A DNA stretch of 46,356 bases from an uncultured Bacilli bacterium. Its GTDB lineage: Bacteria > Bacillota_I > Bacilli_A > RF39 > UBA660. Below are positions 471-39,801 of this stretch, in pieces; position 1 is the stretch's first letter; each line of letters begins with the position of its first letter. The position numbers were made by a program, and so were the translations under genes. Below the pieces are notes generated by a model that did not search any database, was not told where the DNA came from, and worked only from the letters and a program-made list of their open reading frames with translations. Where the stretch lies: the NCBI GenBank assembly GCA_944358825.1, contig CALVSA010000008.1, positions 1 through 46,356 of the forward strand, written 5' to 3'.

Positions 471-2380
471 TTAATATTAGTTTGATAGGAAATCCTAATG
501 TAGGTAAAAGTAGTATTTTTAATCTTTTAACTAAATCTCATCAACATACAGGAAATTGGACTGGAAAGACTGTTGGATCTAATGCTAGTGTTTTTTCTTA
601 CAAAGATAAAGATTATAAAATATATGATTTGCCTGGTACTTATTCGTTAATTTCACATTCTTTAGAAGAAGAGATTACAAGAGATTTTATTTATAATAAT
701 AAAGATAATATTAATATAGTTGTATGTGATATAACTATGTTAGAAAAGTCTCTTAATTTAGTTTTGCAAGTAATGGAAGTAAGTGATAATGTTATATTAT
801 GCCTTAATATGATAGATGAGGCTAGAAGAAAGAAAATAGATGTTGATATAGATAGGTTAAGTAGTATTTTAAAAATTCCTGTTGTAGTTAGTTCTACTAG
901 AACTAAAGAGGGAATTGATAAATTAAAAGAAGTTATTTATAGTTATAAGAAAAATAATAAATTTGAAGTTAAGTATGATAAAGAAGTAGAAGATTTAATA
1001 AAAAAAGTAATGAAAGAAGATAAAATAAGTAGAACTTTAGCTATTAAGAAGATAAATTTAGATAATAAAGATCAAAAGATAGAAGATTTAATTACTAATA
1101 AATTAATAAATATATCATCTGATATAAAAGAAGTAGTAGTAAAAAATAATTGTAATAGATTTTCTAAATTAGATAAAATACTTACTAATAAAATAACAGG
1201 TATTCCTATTATGTTAGTTATGTTATTTATTATTTTTTGGTTAACTATTATTGGAAGTAATTATCCGTCTAATTTACTTAATGAGTTATTAAACTCTCTA
1301 GAAACACCTTTATATAATTTATTATCTTTTTTACCTAGTTATATTACAGATGCGTTAGTTTTTGGTGTTTATCGTATTTTATCGTGGGTAGTATCAGTTA
1401 TGTTACCACCAATGGCTATTTTCTTTTTTCTATTTTCAATATTAGAAGAGTATGGAATATTACCAAGAATTGCTTTTAATTTAGATGATGCTTTTAGTAA
1501 ATGTAATAGTTGTGGTAAACAGGCTTTAACTATGTGTATGGGATTTGGATGTAATGCAGTTGGGGTTACAAATGCTAGGATTATTGATTCTAAAAGAGAA
1601 AGATTAATTGCTATACTTACTAATGTTTTTGTTCCTTGTAATGGGCGTTTTCCTATGATTATTGCAATTATTAGTATGTTTTTTGTAAATAATGATTCGT
1701 ATTTATCGTCATTTTATAGTGCTTTAATATTACTTTTTATAATAATTATTGGTATTGTTGTTACTTTTATTGTTTCTAAAATATTATCTTTAACTTTGTT
1801 AAAGGGAAAAAGTAGTTCATTTATATTAGAACTTCCTCCTTATAAGAGAGTAAATATAATTAAAATATTTATCGATACTTTATTTAATAAAACTCTTCGT
1901 ATTTTAGTAAGAGCAGTTATGGTTGCAATGCCTGCTGGTTTGATTATTTACATTTTATCTAATATAAATATTAATAATTTAAATATAATAAGTATTATTT
2001 CTAATTTCCTAGATCCATTTGCGGACTTACTTGGAATGGATGGAACTATATTATTATCGTTTTTCTTAGGATTTCCTGCAAATGAGATTGTTATTCCTTT
2101 AATAATGATGGGATATAATAATAGTAATTTATTAGTTGAATATGAGAGTTTATCTAGTTTAAAGACATTATTTATTGATAATGGATGGACTTCTTTAACT
2201 GCTATATGTGTAATTTTATTTTCTCTTCTTCATTTTCCTTGTGCGACTACTTGTCTTACGATAAAAAAAGAAACTGGTAGTTATAAATGGATGATACTTG
2301 CTTTTTTAATTCCTTTAATGGTAGGTATTATTGTATGTTTTAGTGTTTGTTCTATTTATAGATTAATTAGCTTAATATAA
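467..2380 (+). CDS. feoB: Ferrous iron transporter FeoB
   Basis: A 637-residue Fe(II) permease. The N-terminal G domain has GNPNVGKSS (residues 8-16), the switch motif DLPGTYS (about 54-60) and an NMID-type specificity motif near 114. It is followed by the helical linker and two nucleoside-recognition/Gate transmembrane regions with the conserved GFGCN segment. Start and stop are clear, and the length is slightly below the usual 650-750. It is coupled to feoA and meets ylbJ tail to tail: the two genes overlap by 14 bases at their 3' ends. Confidence 0.95.
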   Translation: MINISLIGNPNVGKSSIFNLLTKSHQHTGNWTGKTVGSNASVFSYKDKDYKIYDLPGTYSLISHSLEEEITRDFIYNNKDNINIVVCDITMLEKSLNLVLQVMEVSDNVILCLNMIDEARRKKIDVDIDRLSSILKIPVVVSSTRTKEGIDKLKEVIYSYKKNNKFEVKYDKEVEDLIKKVMKEDKISRTLAIKKINLDNKDQKIEDLITNKLINISSDIKEVVVKNNCNRFSKLDKILTNKITGIPIMLVMLFIIFWLTIIGSNYPSNLLNELLNSLETPLYNLLSFLPSYITDALVFGVYRILSWVVSVMLPPMAIFFFLFSILEEYGILPRIAFNLDDAFSKCNSCGKQALTMCMGFGCNAVGVTNARIIDSKRERLIAILTNVFVPCNGRFPMIIAIISMFFVNNDSYLSSFYSALILLFIIIIGIVVTFIVSKILSLTLLKGKSSSFILELPPYKRVNIIKIFIDTLFNKTLRILVRAVMVAMPAGLIIYILSNININNLNIISIISNFLDPFADLLGMDGTILLSFFLGFPANEIVIPLIMMGYNNSNLLVEYESLSSLKTLFIDNGWTSLTAICVILFSLLHFPCATTCLTIKKETGSYKWMILAFLIPLMVGIIVCFSVCSIYRLISLI

Positions 2381-3296
2381 AATAAAATATATATGCTAAT
2401 ACAACAGATATTAAGGCTTGATAAATTCTTCCAATAAAAAATGGTTTGTATGAGATATCAGTATCTATTAGTTGGGCTTTTACTTGCATATGAACTGATA
2501 AGCCTCCAAATGAGATAATAAAGCTAGTAAGTAAGCATATGTGTAAATCATTTAAATTATATAGACTTAGTTCTTTTAGACCAATGGTTATTTCTAATAT
2601 ACTTTTTATAATTATTTGTGCTTTACTACTTAAATCTATTTGATTTATTAAAATGGTTGCTATTATTAGGAAACATGTAAGGGTTCCACATATTAATAAA
2701 ATAGTATCTATTGCACTTTTAATTGCTTTTATAAATATTTCGCCAAAAAAAAGATTGTTATCGTATGTTGTTGGTTGGTCTTCAAGATTAAAATTATTAT
2801 TTCTAAATATTATTCCTAATATAATATTACTTATGTAATGGGAAAGTAGGATAATTATACCTAAATATGGTTTATTAAAAAAGAATATAGATACTGTTCC
2901 TAATATAAATAAAGGGTTAGAAAAATGGGTAAATATTAGTAGGTGTGATGCTTCATCTTTGTTTAGAATTTTCATATCATATAATTTTCTAGTATTTTTA
3001 GCGTTCGATGGAAAACCTGATATCATACTTAATAAGAAGACTAAAACAGCTTCTTTTTTTATATGAAATAGATTTTTGAGAAAATTAATTAAGAATTTTG
3101 GTAAGTATTTAGTAAAATTATAACTAATTAAAATATCTGTTAAAATAAAGAAAGGAAATAAGCTAGGTATTAAATTATTTACCCACATATTTAGGGAAAA
3201 AGATACTGTATTAAATATTAATTCTTTATTTAATAAAAAGTTTATTGTAAAATAACATGTAATAATAATTATTAAAATATTTAAATATTTTTTCAT
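2367..3296 (-). CDS. ylbJ: Sporulation integral membrane protein YlbJ
   Basis: A 309-residue polytopic membrane protein of the nucleoside-recognition (Gate) family. NNLIPSLFPFFILTDIL near residue 40 and the SGFPSNAK segment near residue 93 match the YlbJ signature. YlbJ is a sigma-E-dependent mother-cell protein needed for spore resistance in Bacillus; its transport substrate is not settled. It is shorter than the ~400-residue Bacillus protein. It is divergent from the YlbL-like gene at 3381, and ylbJ and ylbL are also close neighbours in Bacillus, which supports both calls. Confidence 0.85.
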   Translation of the reverse strand: MKKYLNILIIIITCYFTINFLLNKELIFNTVSFSLNMWVNNLIPSLFPFFILTDILISYNFTKYLPKFLINFLKNLFHIKKEAVLVFLLSMISGFPSNAKNTRKLYDMKILNKDEASHLLIFTHFSNPLFILGTVSIFFFNKPYLGIIILLSHYISNIILGIIFRNNNFNLEDQPTTYDNNLFFGEIFIKAIKSAIDTILLICGTLTCFLIIATILINQIDLSSKAQIIIKSILEITIGLKELSLYNLNDLHICLLTSFIISFGGLSVHMQVKAQLIDTDISYKPFFIGRIYQALISVVLAYIFYFILS

Positions 3297-3380
3297 GCTA
3301 AATTATATGAATTATTATTTACTTTTATAAATTGATGTGCTAAAATTTATTGTGATGTATAAGATTAATCAGGTGATGAG

Positions 3381-4376
3381 ATGAAAAAAGTTAAATTGTG
3401 GTTTAAAGAAAACTTGTTTTTTATAGTATTTATTGTTTTAACATTTGTAATATGTAATATACCACTTCCTTATTATATAATGGCTCCAGGTGGGATTATA
3501 GATGTTAATAATAGAATAGAAGTTGATAATAAAAATGAGATGAGCGGAACTCTTAATTTACTTTATGTATCTGAATATAAAGCTACGGTAGCTTCTACTT
3601 TGTTATCTTTTATATTAAAAGATTGGGATTTAGAAAAATTAGAAGAGGTTCAAGTTAATGATGAGACTAGTAGTGAGATTGATTTAAGAAATCGAGTTAT
3701 GTTAGAAAATTCTAGGCAAAATGCTATTTTTGTAGCTTATGAAAAAGCTGGGAAAGAAATTAAGATAAATTCAGAAGAGAATATAGTTGTTGCTACTACA
3801 GTTGATAATAATATCGAAATAGGAGATATTATTTTATCAGTAAATGGTATTGATATTAAAAATATTTCGCAACTGCAAACTATTATTAGAAGTAGTGAAG
3901 TAGGTAGTGATGTTAATGTTAGATTATTAAGGGATAATAAAGAATTAGAAGTAGTTAGTAAAGTATTAGAAGTAGATGGTGTAAAACAAATTGGAGTAGT
4001 AGTAGTTACTAACTATGATTATGAACTTGATCCAAAGATCGATATATCATTTAAAGCTAGTGAGGGTGGATCATCTGGTGGATTAATGATTGCCCTAAAT
4101 ATTTATAATGCTCTAAATGATACGGATATTACTTATGGTCATAAAATAGCGGGTACTGGTACTATTGATATATTAGGTAATGTTGGTGAGATTGATGGAG
4201 TTAAATACAAAATAATTGGTGCTTATAAAAATAAAATGGAACTTGTATTTGTTCCAGATGGTAATTATGAAGAAGCCAAAAAAGTAGTAGAAGATAGAGG
4301 TTATGATATTGAAGTAGTAGCTGTTTCTACTTTTGATGAAGCATTAGATTATTTAAATAATACGTATAACAAATAA
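3381..4376 (+). CDS. ylbL: Membrane-anchored PDZ/Lon-type protease, YlbL/SepM family
   Basis: 331 residues: an N-terminal membrane anchor (about 11-30), then the family segment PYYIMAPGG, a PDZ domain (about 135-200) and a C-terminal Lon-type protease domain. The Ser-Lys dyad is visible: Ser in GGSSGGLM (S232) and Lys in the GVKYK segment (about K277). The proteolytic domain should face outside. Family members act in envelope quality control, and SepM processes a competence pheromone in streptococci. The hydrogenase gene starts 11 bases after its stop behind its own GGAGG. Confidence 0.88.
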   Translation: MKKVKLWFKENLFFIVFIVLTFVICNIPLPYYIMAPGGIIDVNNRIEVDNKNEMSGTLNLLYVSEYKATVASTLLSFILKDWDLEKLEEVQVNDETSSEIDLRNRVMLENSRQNAIFVAYEKAGKEIKINSEENIVVATTVDNNIEIGDIILSVNGIDIKNISQLQTIIRSSEVGSDVNVRLLRDNKELEVVSKVLEVDGVKQIGVVVVTNYDYELDPKIDISFKASEGGSSGGLMIALNIYNALNDTDITYGHKIAGTGTIDILGNVGEIDGVKYKIIGAYKNKMELVFVPDGNYEEAKKVVEDRGYDIEVVAVSTFDEALDYLNNTYNK

Positions 4377-24711: not shown

Positions 24712-24843
24712 TTATCTAAATTGACAACAAGAACCACATTGTTGGTTTGTAACTACATTTTCTTCACTACATGTATAGCGGGGTTGATATGTATGACGAT
24801 AGATATGATTATTGATTATTCTAGTATTTATTGGGCATACATG
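24712..24843 (-). pseudogene. cotD: CotD-like spore coat protein, C-terminal half A (interrupted gene)
   Basis: Read on minus from the core CATGTATG (24843-24836): H V C P I N T R I I N N, then HIYRHTYQPRYTC, SEENVVTNQQ and CGSCCQFR to the stop at 24712. The PH..P..T...N....H.Y.P pattern matches my memory of CotD, an inner spore coat protein. There is no start codon or ribosome-binding site; upstream sequence is the end of the recombinase gene. The missing N-terminal half lies at 28558-28785 in the same orientation, ending precisely at ...PHV. Fusing the halves at the shared core restores an uninterrupted 116-residue protein. Confidence 0.88.
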
Positions 24844-24859
24844 TCTTTGCCCTTTTTTG

Positions 24860-26425
24860 TTAGATTTTATAAAATGTAACTTTAACATTTATTGTTTTAT
24901 CTTCAAATATTTCTATTCTATCTATTAAATTAACTATTAATTCTCTATCAATGCTTTCCATAGATAAAAATTTATTAATGTATTCTTCTATTTTTTTATT
25001 GTTGATATTAATATTTTCTTGATTATTTTTTATATTATTATGTTCTATTAATCTTTTAGTTTTTAATTTTAATTCATTATTTAGTTTAATACTTAGTCTA
25101 TCAAATTGTTCTAATGGTATCTTTTTATTAAGTTTATCTAAATAAATATTATCAAGGTTATCATTTATTCTTTTTATTTCTGATTCTAGTATAGTAATTT
25201 CTTTTATTATACTTATTTTGTCTTTTTTATTTATATTTTTTAAAGCCTCTTCTTTTATAGACTTTTTATCAATATAATTTAAGTATTGTTCTTTTAATGA
25301 ATTTATAATTATCTTTTCTAATGTATCATAATTATTTGAATGAGTCGTACACAATCTTTGTTTCATATAAGTTCGATAATAATTACAAATAGTATAACAT
25401 CTATTATCTTTTTTTCTTCTAGGTGTTACTGATATTCTATGACCACAATCACCACAATGCAAAAGTCCATCAAGCAAATGAATTTCTTTTTTTTCACATC
25501 TACCTACGTTTTTTGGAAGTTTTTTTTGTACTTCATCAAATATATCTTTATCAATTATTGCTTCATGCGTATTTTTTACAACTATATAATCATTAGGATT
25601 ATTTTTTACAATTTTTTTAATTTTATAATTTATCTTACTTCTTTTATTCTGAACTAAATCTCCGGTATAGTTTCTATTAGTTAAAATATCTTGAATTGTT
25701 TTAGCATGCCACTGTCCATAATTTAAATTGTAGTGACTTTTCCATTCAAAATTATAATACTGTGCTGGAGTTTTAACATTTTCTTCAGTTAATTTTTTAG
25801 CTATTTTAAAATAAGATAATCCTTCTAAACTCATATTAAATATTTTTTTAACAATGATTGCTTGTTCTGCGTTAATAACTAAATGATTTTTATCATCTTT
25901 ATCCTGATCATATCCAAAAGGAGTTCTTCCTCCGACCCATTTTCCTTCCTTTTGTTTTGCTCTTAAACTTGACTTAATTTTTTTAGATATATCTTTGGCA
26001 TACATATCATTCATAATTGCTTTAAATGGTGCAATATCATTATTAGAATTATCTAGATATGTGTCTATATTATCCGTTAGCGCTATATATCTAACTCCTT
26101 TGGATGGAAAATACTTTTCTACAAGTTCTCCTGTTCCAATATAATCTCTACCTAATCTAGACATATCTTTTGTAATAACCATATTTATTTTTTTAGATTC
26201 AATATCACTAATAAGTCTTTTGAAAGCGGGCCTATCAAAATTTGTTCCACTAAATCCATCATCAATATAAATATCATATACTTTTAAATTATTTTCTTTA
26301 ACATATTGAAGTAATAAACTTTTTTGATTAGTTATACTTTCGCTTTCGCGTTTTTCTCCATCTTCTTTTGATAACCTTATATATAAACCTACATTATAAA
26401 TTTCACTTACAATCTTAAGTAACAT
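24860..26425 (-). CDS. Large serine recombinase (site-specific integrase/excisionase)
   Basis: 521 residues from the ATG at 26425 (GGGAGGTAAAATTG upstream). Resolvase domain: catalytic Ser19 in YIRLSKEDG, IDDGFSGTNFDRPAF, and SRLGRD with the conserved arginines. The recombinase domain follows (GGRTPFGY segment), then a zinc ribbon (HCGDCGH... C...C, about 320-365) and a long coiled-coil region (about 395-470). It resembles TnpX-like recombinases of clostridial elements. Its stop is 17 bp from the left junction core, the usual place for the enzyme of an integrated element. Confidence 0.95.
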   Translation of the reverse strand: MLLKIVSEIYNVGLYIRLSKEDGEKRESESITNQKSLLLQYVKENNLKVYDIYIDDGFSGTNFDRPAFKRLISDIESKKINMVITKDMSRLGRDYIGTGELVEKYFPSKGVRYIALTDNIDTYLDNSNNDIAPFKAIMNDMYAKDISKKIKSSLRAKQKEGKWVGGRTPFGYDQDKDDKNHLVINAEQAIIVKKIFNMSLEGLSYFKIAKKLTEENVKTPAQYYNFEWKSHYNLNYGQWHAKTIQDILTNRNYTGDLVQNKRSKINYKIKKIVKNNPNDYIVVKNTHEAIIDKDIFDEVQKKLPKNVGRCEKKEIHLLDGLLHCGDCGHRISVTPRRKKDNRCYTICNYYRTYMKQRLCTTHSNNYDTLEKIIINSLKEQYLNYIDKKSIKEEALKNINKKDKISIIKEITILESEIKRINDNLDNIYLDKLNKKIPLEQFDRLSIKLNNELKLKTKRLIEHNNIKNNQENININNKKIEEYINKFLSMESIDRELIVNLIDRIEIFEDKTINVKVTFYKI

Positions 26426-26603
26426 CAATTTTACCTCCCTTATTTTTAAGAGAAAATCGCGTACATGGTGATGTTATCTCATGTTTTTTATTTTTACAAA
26501 TCGTTTGAATATATTTTTTTAATTCTTTATTTAAAGTTTTAATAATAATATCATTTATATTTTTTTCATTATTAAAAATAAAATTTATTTTGTATTTATC
26601 CAT
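26415..26603 (-). CDS. Small hypothetical protein upstream of the recombinase
   Basis: 62 residues behind GAGGTGCG, overlapping the recombinase start by about 11 bases. Lys/Asn-rich helix, then SPCTRFSLKN and a C-terminal GGKIDVT. The TRFS segment also occurs in the next small gene upstream. A recombination directionality factor or a translational coupling peptide is possible; no family recognised. Confidence 0.5.
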   Translation of the reverse strand: MDKYKINFIFNNEKNINDIIIKTLNKELKKYIQTICKNKKHEITSPCTRFSLKNKGGKIDVT

Positions 26604-26788
26604 AACTTTCGCACCTCATTTAAATTTATGGATAAATTATTAGTTTTAGTAATACTAAATCGTGTAAATACCACATTACACATTAATTTAGTATTACTTA
26701 TAGGTATTGACTCTTTGTAGATTATTATTTTAATCATATTTTTTTGTATCATTCTTATTTTATAAGATATTAAAGTATATAAAAACAT
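26585..26788 (-). CDS. Small hypothetical protein with TRFS motif
   Basis: 67 residues, possibly starting at an internal Met (MIQKNMIK). It contains CNVVFTRFSITKTNN, matching the TRFS region of the gene that follows, which it overlaps. Coupled position suggests that it belongs to the element's recombination module. No known domain. Confidence 0.4.
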   Translation of the reverse strand: MFLYTLISYKIRMIQKNMIKIIIYKESIPISNTKLMCNVVFTRFSITKTNNLSINLNEVRKLWINTK

Positions 26789-26825
26789 CCTACATTTAAT
26801 AAATCAATTATTTTTGTAGGATGTT
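26784..26825. terminator. Inverted repeat acting as terminator after fic
   Basis: Perfect 11-bp repeat AACATCCTACA / TGTAGGATGTT with a ~20-nt AT-rich loop; on minus it is followed by T5. TCCTACA also appears in the larger inverted repeat at 32588-32662. Confidence 0.6.
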
Positions 26826-26832
26826 CAATTTT

Positions 26833-27585
26833 TTAATTATTTTCTTTTATTTCAAAATCTAATAATTCTTCACATATTTTTTCGTATAAATCTTGTTCGT
26901 GACGGGTAGTATCAATTAAGAACATTTTATCATTTTCATATTCTTTTAAACCTCTCATATAATAAGGTTTATCATCATCTAATACAATAAATGGCATAAT
27001 GTTATTTCTCAAACATTCTTTAAACATTATTATTCTACCAACACGACCATTTCCATCACCAAAGGGATGTATACGCTCAAATTTAAAATGAAAATCAACA
27101 ATATCTTCTAAAGTAATGTTAGTTTTAGAATTATATTCATTTAATAATTCTTCGATTTTCTCTTCTACATTTTCTGGTGCCGTAGTATTAATAATATTAA
27201 CTACACCTATTATATTAGGAACAACTTTAAATCCACCAACGTTATATCTAGGATTTTCTTCATCACTAGTGTTTCTCTTTAAAATCTTATTCATTTCAAT
27301 TATCATCTCTTTAGTTAATAGTTCATCTACATTATCTAACATATAATCAAATAATTTAAAATGATTTTTAGATTCAGTTAAATCATCTAATTTGATTAAA
27401 TCATCACTTTTAAGAATAAATGAAGATGTATCAAATATTGCTTCAGTTTGCTCACTAGTTAATCTACTACCTTCAATTTTATTTGAATTGTAAGCAAAAT
27501 AAACTTGTGAATAATGATATATATTTCCTTTAAATTTAGATTCTTTTTGTTTAATTAATTCATTTTTAATTTTATTTATATTCAT
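26833..27585 (-). CDS. fic: Fic-domain protein with N-terminal inhibitory motif (class II)
   Basis: 250 residues. The Fic motif HPFGDGNGRVGRI carries the catalytic His and the phosphate-binding GNGR. An inhibitory (S/T)xxxE(G/N) motif is visible upstream of it as SNKIEG (about residues 34-39), so activity should be self-restrained. Such enzymes usually transfer AMP to a protein target. It is cargo of the element and overlaps the preceding GNAT fragment by four bases. A stabilising or defensive role for the element is inference. Confidence 0.9.
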   Translation of the reverse strand: MNINKIKNELIKQKESKFKGNIYHYSQVYFAYNSNKIEGSRLTSEQTEAIFDTSSFILKSDDLIKLDDLTESKNHFKLFDYMLDNVDELLTKEMIIEMNKILKRNTSDEENPRYNVGGFKVVPNIIGVVNIINTTAPENVEEKIEELLNEYNSKTNITLEDIVDFHFKFERIHPFGDGNGRVGRIIMFKECLRNNIMPFIVLDDDKPYYMRGLKEYENDKMFLIDTTRHEQDLYEKICEELLDFEIKENN

Positions 27586-27893
27586 AATTCATCTCGCTTT
27601 CTATTTTTGTTAACTACTTTATATTCCATATAATATCTACTATCTGTTTCTTCTTTTACATTAAAACCTAGTTTATTATATAAATTAATTGCTTTAATAT
27701 TATCTTTGTATACCCATAAATATACATTATTATTTGATTTAGATAGAACATCTTTAATAATTGATGTCTCAATTTCTTTATTTTTGTATTGTTTTTCAAT
27801 AAATATTTCATCTAATAGTAAACAATTTTCATTTTTAGTTATCAAAAAACTTCCAATTATAGTATTATTTAAAAGAATATTTTTATATTCTTT
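27582..27893 (-). pseudogene. GNAT acetyltransferase, 3' fragment
   Basis: The readable frame gives IIGSFLITKNENCLLLDEIFI, then VYKDNIKAINLYNKLGF, the C-terminal acetyl-CoA-binding half of a GNAT. The frame opens at 27893 inside the end of the upstream gene, with no proper N-terminal half. It is therefore 5'-truncated; a short product from ATG 27845 is possible. Confidence 0.7.
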
Positions 27894-28452
27894 CTATATC
27901 TCTTATAGAAGCGTTTTCTACTTTATTACCTGATTCACAATGTTTAAAGAATTCATTTGCTGTTATATTATATTTTGGTTTTGTATATTCATAAATTGTC
28001 GTGTAATCATTATGAATGTTGTATTTTTTTTTAATCATATTATCAAATTTATTTTTAACAGAAAGTAATGCTTCGTTTAAACTTTTATATTTGTGTATTC
28101 CACGATGTGGTTCCCATGAGTGTTCTATCCAATAGTAATTAGTTTCGTCATTAGCTATAATAAATGTGTGTGTAGGGAAGATTTTTCCATCATAATTAAT
28201 TATAAAATACGAATTATATCTAATATTTTCTTGTTCTAAAAAATATCTTTCTAGTTCAACTTGGTCCCAACAAACTCCATATTTTGTCTTTATTAATGTT
28301 TTTGGTGCTTGTAAAAAATATTTTGTTTGGAAATTATTATCCCAATTTTTTTCATCATCAGGATATATATTTTTGTCTTTATCTGCAAATCCATATTTTA
28401 TATCTTTCATGTTATTTAAAATCGATTTTAAGTATTTTTCAAATTCATTCAT
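27883..28452 (-). CDS. Transglutaminase-like cysteine protein (element cargo)
   Basis: 189 residues from the ATG at 28452, preceded by GAGGT; an in-frame start further upstream lacks such a site. KYGVCWDQVELERYFL, then FPTHTFIIA and a WIEHSWEPHRGIH segment, suggests a papain/transglutaminase-type Cys-His arrangement. The exact family is not certain. It is the element's outermost gene, next to the junction with the coat gene N-terminal half. Confidence 0.65.
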   Translation of the reverse strand: MNEFEKYLKSILNNMKDIKYGFADKDKNIYPDDEKNWDNNFQTKYFLQAPKTLIKTKYGVCWDQVELERYFLEQENIRYNSYFIINYDGKIFPTHTFIIANDETNYYWIEHSWEPHRGIHKYKSLNEALLSVKNKFDNMIKKKYNIHNDYTTIYEYTKPKYNITANEFFKHCESGNKVENASIRDIERI

Positions 28453-28557
28453 AATATTTACCTCTGTAATCATTATACCATAAAAAAAGACATTCTTATC
28501 AAAAAGCCTTTCATTTATATTTAGTTTCTCTAATGTTTTTTGGTCTATCATAAATTA

Positions 28558-28785
28558 TCACACATGAGGAACTTCATGAAGAATATTGCGATAAACACAT
28601 CTTTCTCTTGGAGTTTCCATGATTGGAGCTGACATCATAGGTTGAGCATATCCTCCCATTTCATATCCTCCCATCATTTCGTTAGTATTAGTATTGGTAT
28701 TTACATTTTGATTAGTTATGTTTATATCAATATCATTATCTAAACCGTATGGCATATCTTGTCTGAATTCATCATTACAAAACAT
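28558..28785 (-). pseudogene. cotD: CotD-like spore coat protein, N-terminal half (interrupted gene)
   Basis: 75 codons with AGGAGG before the ATG at 28785. MFCNDEFRQDMPYGLDN, an Asn/Thr-rich stretch, a Met/Gly-rich stretch (MMGGYEMGGYAQPMM), then ERCVYRNILHEVPHV and a TGA created by the junction. Without the element the frame continues from PHV into CPINTR... of the C-terminal half. In this arrangement only a truncated protein lacking the conserved region and all but two of the cysteines could be made. Confidence 0.88.
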
Positions 28786-28806: not shown

Positions 28807-28831
28807 TATAATATGAGACGTTTTAATTAGT
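28807..28831 (-). promoter_or_regulatory. Sigma-K-like promoter candidate for the cotD-like gene
   Basis: On minus, CATATTATA (28815-28807) fits the sigma-K -10 pattern CATAnnnTA, with AC at 28831-28830 as possible -35, though the spacing is 1-2 bases short. A hairpin-forming repeat AGACGTTT / AAACGTCT (28816-28848) overlaps it and may instead end ffh transcription. Confidence 0.35.
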
Positions 28832-28873: not shown

Positions 28874-30181
28874 TTAAAATGGCATTTTAAAATTTTTATT
28901 TTGCATTAACTTCATCATTTTTTTCATTTCTTCAAATTGTTTCAATAGGTTATTGACATCTGTTACAGTTGTTCCTGATCCGTTTGCAATTCTTTGCTTG
29001 CGACTTGCTTTTAGGATGGCAGGATTTTTTCTTTCTTCTTTTGTCATTGATAGGACAATGGCTTCTATGTGTGCCATTTTTTTAGGATCAATATTGACAT
29101 TATTTAAGCCCATTTTTTTGGCACCTGGTAGTAATTTTATTAAGTTTTCTAGTGGCCCTAGTTTCTTTATTTGATTTAATTGTTCTAAAAAATCTTCAAG
29201 ATCAAAATTACCACTTGTCATTTTTTTTGCTGTTTTCATGGCTTCTTTTTCATCTATTTCACTTTCAACTTTTTCAACGATACTCAAAATATCTCCCATA
29301 CCAAGTATTCTTGAAGCCATACGATCTGGATGAAATTCTACAAGTCCGTCTAGTTTTTCACTAATACCGATAAATTTAATTGGAATATTTGTTAGATGAC
29401 GAACGGATAGGGCAACACCACCTCTAGTATCTCCATCTAATTTTGTAAGTATTACTCCAGTTAATGATAAGGAATTATTAAACCCTTCAATAACATTAAT
29501 AGCATCTTGTCCCATCATAGCATCGATTACTAATAAGGTTTCATCGGGATGAACAATTTCAGTGATATCTTTTAATTCATCCATTAGTTTTTCATCAATA
29601 TGTAATCTTCCAGCAGTATCTATTAATACATAATCAAACCCATTTTCTTTAGCATATTCTAAGGCTTGTTTAACAGTTATTTTAGGATCAGTAGTTCCTT
29701 TTTCAAAAACTTCAATGTTTAGTTCTTTTCCTATTTGAACTAATTGATCAATGGCTGCTGGTCTATATATATCACAAGCAACGAGTAGGGGTTTTCTTTT
29801 ATGATTTTTACGTAGGTAATTAGCAAGTTTTCCAATTGTAGTAGTTTTACCTGAACCTTGCAATCCAACTAGCATAGAAATTGTTAAATCTTTTTTTATT
29901 GTTAAATCGCTTTTTTCTCCACCAAGTAATTCAGTTAATTCATCTTTAACAATTTTTACAAAGTATTCTCCTGGAGATAGGCTTTTATTTACTTCTTCAC
30001 CTAAGGCTTTTTGTTTAACATTGTTTGTAAATTCTTTAACAACTTTATAGTTAACGTCAGCTTCTAGTAAAGATAATCTTATTTCTCTCATCATTTCTGA
30101 AATATTATCTTCTGTTATTTTTCCATAACCTTTAATTTTATGTATTACTCCTTGTAATCTATCACTTAAATTTTCAAACAT
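28874..30181 (-). CDS. ffh: Signal recognition particle protein Ffh
   Basis: 435 residues from the ATG at 30181 (GGTGATATA upstream). An N-domain helical bundle is followed by a GTPase with GLQGSGKTTT, DTAGR and TKLDGDTRGG. The C-terminal M-domain (about 300-430), rich in Met and Lys, binds SRP RNA and signal peptides. Complete and standard length. It is divergent from tRNA-Gly. Confidence 0.98.
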   Translation of the reverse strand: MFENLSDRLQGVIHKIKGYGKITEDNISEMMREIRLSLLEADVNYKVVKEFTNNVKQKALGEEVNKSLSPGEYFVKIVKDELTELLGGEKSDLTIKKDLTISMLVGLQGSGKTTTIGKLANYLRKNHKRKPLLVACDIYRPAAIDQLVQIGKELNIEVFEKGTTDPKITVKQALEYAKENGFDYVLIDTAGRLHIDEKLMDELKDITEIVHPDETLLVIDAMMGQDAINVIEGFNNSLSLTGVILTKLDGDTRGGVALSVRHLTNIPIKFIGISEKLDGLVEFHPDRMASRILGMGDILSIVEKVESEIDEKEAMKTAKKMTSGNFDLEDFLEQLNQIKKLGPLENLIKLLPGAKKMGLNNVNIDPKKMAHIEAIVLSMTKEERKNPAILKASRKQRIANGSGTTVTDVNNLLKQFEEMKKMMKLMQNKNFKMPF

Positions 30182-30236
30182 TATATCACCTTCTAAATAA
30201 TTATACACTATATTTTGAGATTTTTATTAAAAACTA

Positions 30237-39590: not shown

Positions 39591-39669
39591 AGTAAAAATA
39601 ATACGTAAAACGAAACTTGAAGATTTACGTGAAAAATAGAGATTAAAATTTATCATAAATACTCAATCA

Positions 39670-39801
39670 CATGTGTGCCCTATAAATACAAGAATAATAA
39701 ATAATCATATTTATCGACATACATATCAACCACGTTATACATGTAGTGAAGAAAATGTAGTTACTAATCAACAATGTGGTTCATGTTGTCAATTTCGTTA
39801 A
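39670..39801 (+). pseudogene. cotD: CotD-like spore coat protein, C-terminal half B (no N-terminal half)
   Basis: Starts at the core CATGTGTG (39670-39677) and encodes HVCPINTRIINN, HIYRHTYQPRYTC, SEENVVTNQQ and CGSCCQFR: the same 43 residues as half A, although 12 codons differ. It has no start codon or ribosome-binding site; a stop (TAG) closes the frame about 30 bases upstream of the core. Upstream bases (39607-39645) read IRKTKLEDLREK and a stop, possibly the tail of a lost element gene. The only N-terminal half in the window is on the other strand at 28558, so joining would need inversion. Confidence 0.85.

Follow-up and report, generated by a model that had tools for sequence, protein, structure and literature searches.

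Why does a spore coat gene stop halfway and resume 3.7 kb further on? In the window (the whole stretch of 46,356 nucleotides that we analysed, from an uncultured Bacilli bacterium whose genome we call G000), a cotD-like gene beside ffh is read as two halves. As the preliminary description had claimed, the halves lie on one strand and in one frame, they are separated by 3,723 bp from core to core, and once joined they translate to 116 amino acids with no stop codon. We think it likely that the interruption is a compact, mobile sporulation-gene intervening element of the skin/gin class, which uses cotD as its attachment site (attB), and that excision in the mother cell rebuilds CotD. The gene and its upstream surroundings are as follows:

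28565..28785, minus strand: 5' half of the cotD-like gene, with the crossover CA as its last two bases; homologous N-terminal halves are broken at the identical codon in 64 named contigs.
24712..24843, minus strand: 3' half of the cotD-like gene, 43 codons (HVCPINTR...CQFR), matching PF11122 at 18.8 bits.
28874..30208, minus strand: ffh, the conserved upstream neighbour of cotD, in identical order in G001, G002, G005, G023, and G074.
28807..28815, minus strand: sigma-K-like −10 box CATATTATA upstream of cotD, based on the count of the CATAnnnTA motif across loci.

The reading frame of the N-terminal half continues past the crossover to a TGA at 28558, so that the half as translated (28785-28558, minus strand) ends in HEVPHV. 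Pfam's CotD model (PF11122) gives the fused protein 17 bits (E = 0.008), which is below the curated cut-off of 22; the same model matches the CotD of 14 of 20 relatives at E values up to 0.1 (the best is 1.4e-7). The sigma-K-like −10 motif CATAnnnTA is present in 27 of the 30 cotD upstream regions, which come from related loci and are not 30 independent tests (shuffled sequences gave a mean of 2.7 and a maximum of 8).

The preliminary description also proposed a core shared by the two breaks. The 8-bp sequences CATGTGTG (28566-28559) and CATGTATG (24843-24836) are indeed present, but repeats longer than this imperfect core occur by chance in the AT-rich window. Because the match is no better than chance, the window alone cannot establish the core, and it is the comparison of relatives that decides. 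That comparison upholds it: across 40 loci, the dinucleotide CA is the sole invariant core, flanked on the host side by GAAGTNCCN and TGTNTGYCC and by the element ends GTCTATCAAAAAAGGGCAAGGA and AGNGTGATAATTTATGATAGAC (40 elements). The two ends, left (AGNGTGATAATTTATGATAGAC) and right (GTCTATCAAAAAAGGGCAAGGA), are arms in inverted orientation; in relatives the right end reads GTCTATCATAAAT, the inverted counterpart of ATTTATGATAGAC at the left end. The element in the window consists of:

28565..28566, minus strand: attL crossover dinucleotide CA, within CATGTGTG (28559-28566), placed by the alignment of 40 junctions and by natural attP junctions.
24842..24843, minus strand: attR crossover dinucleotide CA, within CATGTATG (24836-24843), placed by the alignment of 40 junctions.
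28543..28564, minus strand: left end of the element, TGTGTGATAATTTATGATAGAC, an attP arm conserved among the aligned elements (the exact motif is in 6 of 7 genus genomes).
24844..24867, minus strand: right end of the element, AAATCTAACAAAAAAGGGCAAAGA, an attP arm placed by the 40-locus alignment.
24860..26428, minus strand: large serine recombinase of 522 amino acids (Resolvase, Recombinase, and Zn_ribbon_recom domains), in a cotD-specific clade.
26415..26603, minus strand: small ORF of 62 amino acids that overlaps the recombinase start, conserved in position; candidate recombination directionality factor.
26833..27585, minus strand: cargo, a Fic/DOC-domain protein that matches the PADLOC candidate defence family PDC-S04 (E = 6e-99).
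27582..27845, minus strand: cargo, a GNAT acetyltransferase by domain match, shorter than those of relatives (293 amino acids in L031).
27883..28551, minus strand: cargo, a transglutaminase-like protein by domain match (PF04473).

Recombination between the two CA dinucleotides is predicted to leave GAAGTTCCTCATGTATGCCC in the rejoined chromosome and GGGCAAAGACATGTGTGATAATTT in the circle. Two loci (L083 and L210) have two tandem elements within one cotD, and the predicted attP sequence lies between them. Therefore, recombination at exactly these ends has happened in nature.

The comparison also supports the earlier view of the interruption as a small, phage-free element, similar to skin or SPbeta, in a coat gene. 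The recombinase reported near one core runs from 26428 to 24860 and ends 16 bp before it. No phage structural or packaging genes were found (PHROGs gave only integrase, acetyltransferase, MazF-like, and unknown-function families). Across relatives, the cotD elements range from 2.8 to 9 kb and normally carry one recombinase, and their cargo differs: Fic, GNAT, and transglutaminase-like proteins, a MazE/MazF-type pair, and ASCH-like and SWIM-like proteins (the last two are named by sequence appearance, and the SWIM-like protein has no Pfam match). A small ORF of 47-62 amino acids is kept in position before the recombinase in most cotD elements and in a sister clade that targets a LysM gene, and this conserved position makes it a candidate for the recombination directionality factor. 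An inverted repeat, AGTAATACTAAAT...ATTTAGTATTACT, is conserved before the small ORF in many elements (about 26630-26700 on the minus strand of the window). We considered a sigma-E promoter for the recombinase and did not find it convincing, as a −10-like sequence was found in 17 of 36 cases, with no −35.

How widespread is the split, and does the empty site exist? When we searched 40 relatives with the fused protein, cotD proved to be split at the identical codon in all six other genomes of the genus (in G003 we see the C-terminal half only, and in G004 and G006 the halves are on separate contigs). It is also split in G023, from another genus, and uninterrupted in many other genera. Among 88 genomes of the family, about one per genus, 70 have cotD; with contig ends checked, it is intact in 44 and split in 24. 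Two genomes are outside both counts: the contig of G044 starts at the junction, and in G107 cotD is probably split too, as its N-terminal half ends in the element-type sequence CAAGTGTGATAATTTTTGATAGAC. (We rejected G087 as a split case because its contig reads through the fused junction; it is an intact gene with a contig break.) More broadly, a scan for the element end in one genome per species, across 84,980 species, matched 71 contigs, namely 64 cotD N-terminal halves cut at the same codon, two off-target insertions, one attP junction, and four chance matches. The records matched are titled as uncultured Bacilli, Tenericutes, and Candidatus Faecimonas MAGs. Record titles also mention rabbit and other animals as sources. 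Viral contigs searched for the element end gave no match.

The preliminary description had looked to sister genomes for an uninterrupted cotD at this position, and there is one. In G074, a 112-amino-acid cotD directly follows ffh, and in G206, of the same genus, cotD is split by 4,559 bp. When G206 is joined at the CA, it aligns with G074 as a single 5,110-bp stretch (96.5% identity) across the junction; unjoined, the alignment breaks there. Full-length homologues of the fusion across the junction, also anticipated, are present in 44 of the 70 genomes, and none of the comparisons that could be run spoke against that description. For the occupied species, we found neither an excised chromosome nor a free circle. 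At one other locus (L251, G010:C18, 4423-5661), a cargo-like Fic gene lies between ffh and an intact cotD and is perhaps the scar of a former element.

The window holds a further piece of cotD:

39670..39801, plus strand: second cotD 3' half, with an identical 43-amino-acid product and 13 synonymous nucleotide differences.
39651..39671, plus strand: element end TATCATAAATACTCAATCA-CA joined to this second 3' half.

Compared with G001, G002, and G005, the segment between the two C-terminal halves looks inverted, and flipping it would restore the ffh-cotD-cdaA order of those genomes. In G006, the C-terminal half is at trmD and there is none at cdaA. Locus L043 (G016:C94) also has two cotD 3' halves, with a MazE/MazF-type pair and an element end between them, and its second copy looks partly decayed.

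The element moves between hosts. A 5,628-bp element is 99.7-99.9% identical in G001, G005, contig C69 of G002, and G199, while the host flanks are 96% or 75% identical or cannot be aligned. Near-identical elements amid unrelated flanks imply horizontal movement between genera, with reinsertion in cotD. (Contig C69, L033, gives this one MAG a second ffh and a different split cotD, with the same element as in G001, and possibly comes from a contaminating species.) The 85% identity of the left part of the element and ffh between G000 and G006 suggested strict vertical descent from their common ancestor, and we rejected it as proof: Fic is less diverged than ffh (dS of 0.31 versus 0.97), and in the recombinase tree G000 is closest to G070, from another genus, and not to G006. 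So, residence since that ancestor is not proven.

In the tree, the cotD recombinases group in one clade (40 rows, support 100/98), and the recombinases of the sister clade (9 rows, 100/100) interrupt a LysM gene, which in some hosts is Amidase_3-LysM. The two halves of that gene have GGGGATAC in common and can be fused in frame; the gene (L112-L120) is often near a CwlJ/SleB-type Hydrolase_2 gene. Deeper relatives, about 40% identical, split genes for a substrate-binding protein, a Ca-ATPase, and an FtsW-like protein (names that are our reading of the translations). The substrate-binding protein gene is split in the window's own genome too (L121, G000:C4), as well as at L122-L129. We therefore rejected a recombinase family dedicated to spore genes: it is not confined to them, since its deeper relatives strike metabolic genes.

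A second sporulation gene is interrupted as well. SpoIVA is a mother-cell protein whose gene is essential for spores in B. subtilis. While searching for it as a sporulation marker, we found spoIVA split in frame at two sites within the genus, in G000, G001, G002, and G003. Site 1 (VMTPW|YS) is occupied in G002 and G003, with a 528-amino-acid recombinase, and by profile coordinates also in G008, G042, and G067. Site 2 (APSIH|MIKV) is occupied in G000, G001, and G002, and by coordinates in G101; its recombinase, read in G002, is a different one of 546 amino acids. G002 is thus split at both sites at once, and the window's genome has both cotD and spoIVA split. Rejoining at TGG and CATAT gives an intact reading, as in G005 and G006. 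In G000 the pieces are:

L284 (G000:C52), 2365-3632: spoIVA piece.
L285 (G000:C9), 61-336: spoIVA piece.

Loci L288-L291 show the splitting of spoIVA in this genus as well. Because the spoIVA pieces of G000 and G001 sit at contig ends, the element there is read at most in part. An apparent insertion in G015 was rejected, as its pieces overlap and indicate a contig break. Of the three sporulation markers that we looked at, the genus genomes keep uninterrupted Spo0A and sigma-K/E-type factors, and SpoIVA is present though split; Spo0A was not found over the cut-off in G005, which is 80% complete.

To explain these observations, we propose that the serine recombinase of a compact integrative element uses cotD as attB and that cotD would remain split in vegetative cells. 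In sporulating cells, the recombinase would join the two CA cores, probably aided by the adjacent small protein as its directionality factor; this would release a 3.7-kb circle and restore, in the mother cell, a 116-amino-acid CotD driven by a sigma-K-type promoter. As the mother cell is discarded, the heritable genome would retain the element. A bolder proposal, which seems to us evenly poised between right and wrong, is that this family of uncultured gut Bacilli sporulates via several simultaneous DNA excisions. Unrelated compact, horizontally mobile elements would occupy cotD, spoIVA (at two sites), and the LysM cell-wall gene, with two or three in some genomes, and each would have to be excised in the terminal mother cell before a proper spore could form; the second cotD 3' half in the window's species would even make it possible to repair the gene through inversion rather than deletion.

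A second possibility is that this is an ordinary site-specific element for which a conserved stretch of cotD happens to be attB. It would disrupt the gene, or leave it at a low, unregulated rate, with turnover that outpaces decay and no developmental control. Rapid horizontal spread, two off-target insertions, and the coexistence of split and intact species within genera all fit this idea. So do the relatives that target non-spore genes, because of which gene splitting alone does not imply development. Fast turnover also calls for caution over the intact halves, which need not mean long residence. Nevertheless, we consider this unlikely, because cotD is occupied in about one-third of genera and in all seven genomes of the genus, with none of 29 cotD genes decayed, and because spoIVA too is interrupted by independent recombinase lineages, at two sites simultaneously in G002.

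Third, the halves could be dead remnants or two separate short proteins, as the N-terminal ORF ends in a stop codon and, in the window, an ATG lies upstream of the C-terminal ORF. However, wherever a single contig carries both halves (29 of 29 loci), their fusion gives back the ancestral protein as an uninterrupted, in-frame CotD of 82-140 amino acids (a thirtieth row of our joined-frame table, contig C69 of G002, is a separate locus). The joined halves have dN/dS of 0-0.035 among G001, G002, G004, and G005 and of 0.14 for G000 and G006, and among G001-G005 the C-terminal half has 0 amino-acid changes versus 3-8 synonymous ones, so the halves stay under purifying selection. Also, the DNA that precedes the C-terminal half is element sequence that varies between elements. 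Together with the sister empty site, this makes the idea very improbable. Finally, several contigs do end at cotD junctions, but we give almost no credence to an artefact of MAG assembly, as the identical architecture recurs across numerous MAGs that differ in project and host, and at most loci the two halves share a contig.

The spore-gene intervening elements described so far are scattered cases, and most are prophages. Here, small elements without phage genes are common across dozens of genera, move between them, and occupy several spore genes, including spoIVA; our searches of an open-access library turned up no case in cotD or spoIVA. This suggests that mobile DNA finds a general refuge in genes needed solely in a dying cell. 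A further consequence is that automatic annotation can mistake spore genes in such MAGs for broken or missing ones.

Among the closest known systems are skin in sigK (Bacillus and Clostridioides; PMC5025042) and SPbeta in spsM (PMC4191935), which are prophages or prophage-like and whose excision during sporulation is proven. Like them, the cotD element has a serine recombinase within a sporulation gene, halves that are in frame, and attL and attR sites with a core and inverted repeats; unlike them, it has no phage structural gene, and its excision is a proposal. The yin element in yabG of Clostridium botulinum is likewise an intervening element in a sporulation gene, but it is prophage-like and reported from one isolate, with integrated and circular forms both present in culture (PMC10747680), whereas the cotD element is widespread, small, and mobile between genera. 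The gin element in gerE of Bacillus cereus ATCC10987 is 28.6 kb with three recombinases, occurs in some B. cereus and B. toyonensis strains, and needs a tiny directionality protein, GirX (42 amino acids; PMC5595907). Like the cotD element, gin has a serine recombinase, a short shared core, and no phage genes; its target is a small late mother-cell gene, as cotD, with its sigma-K-like −10, may be; and the 62-amino-acid small ORF is a candidate counterpart of GirX. Unlike gin, the cotD element is only 2.8-9 kb, normally has one recombinase, has an excision that we infer, and is found in dozens of genera of uncultured Bacilli.
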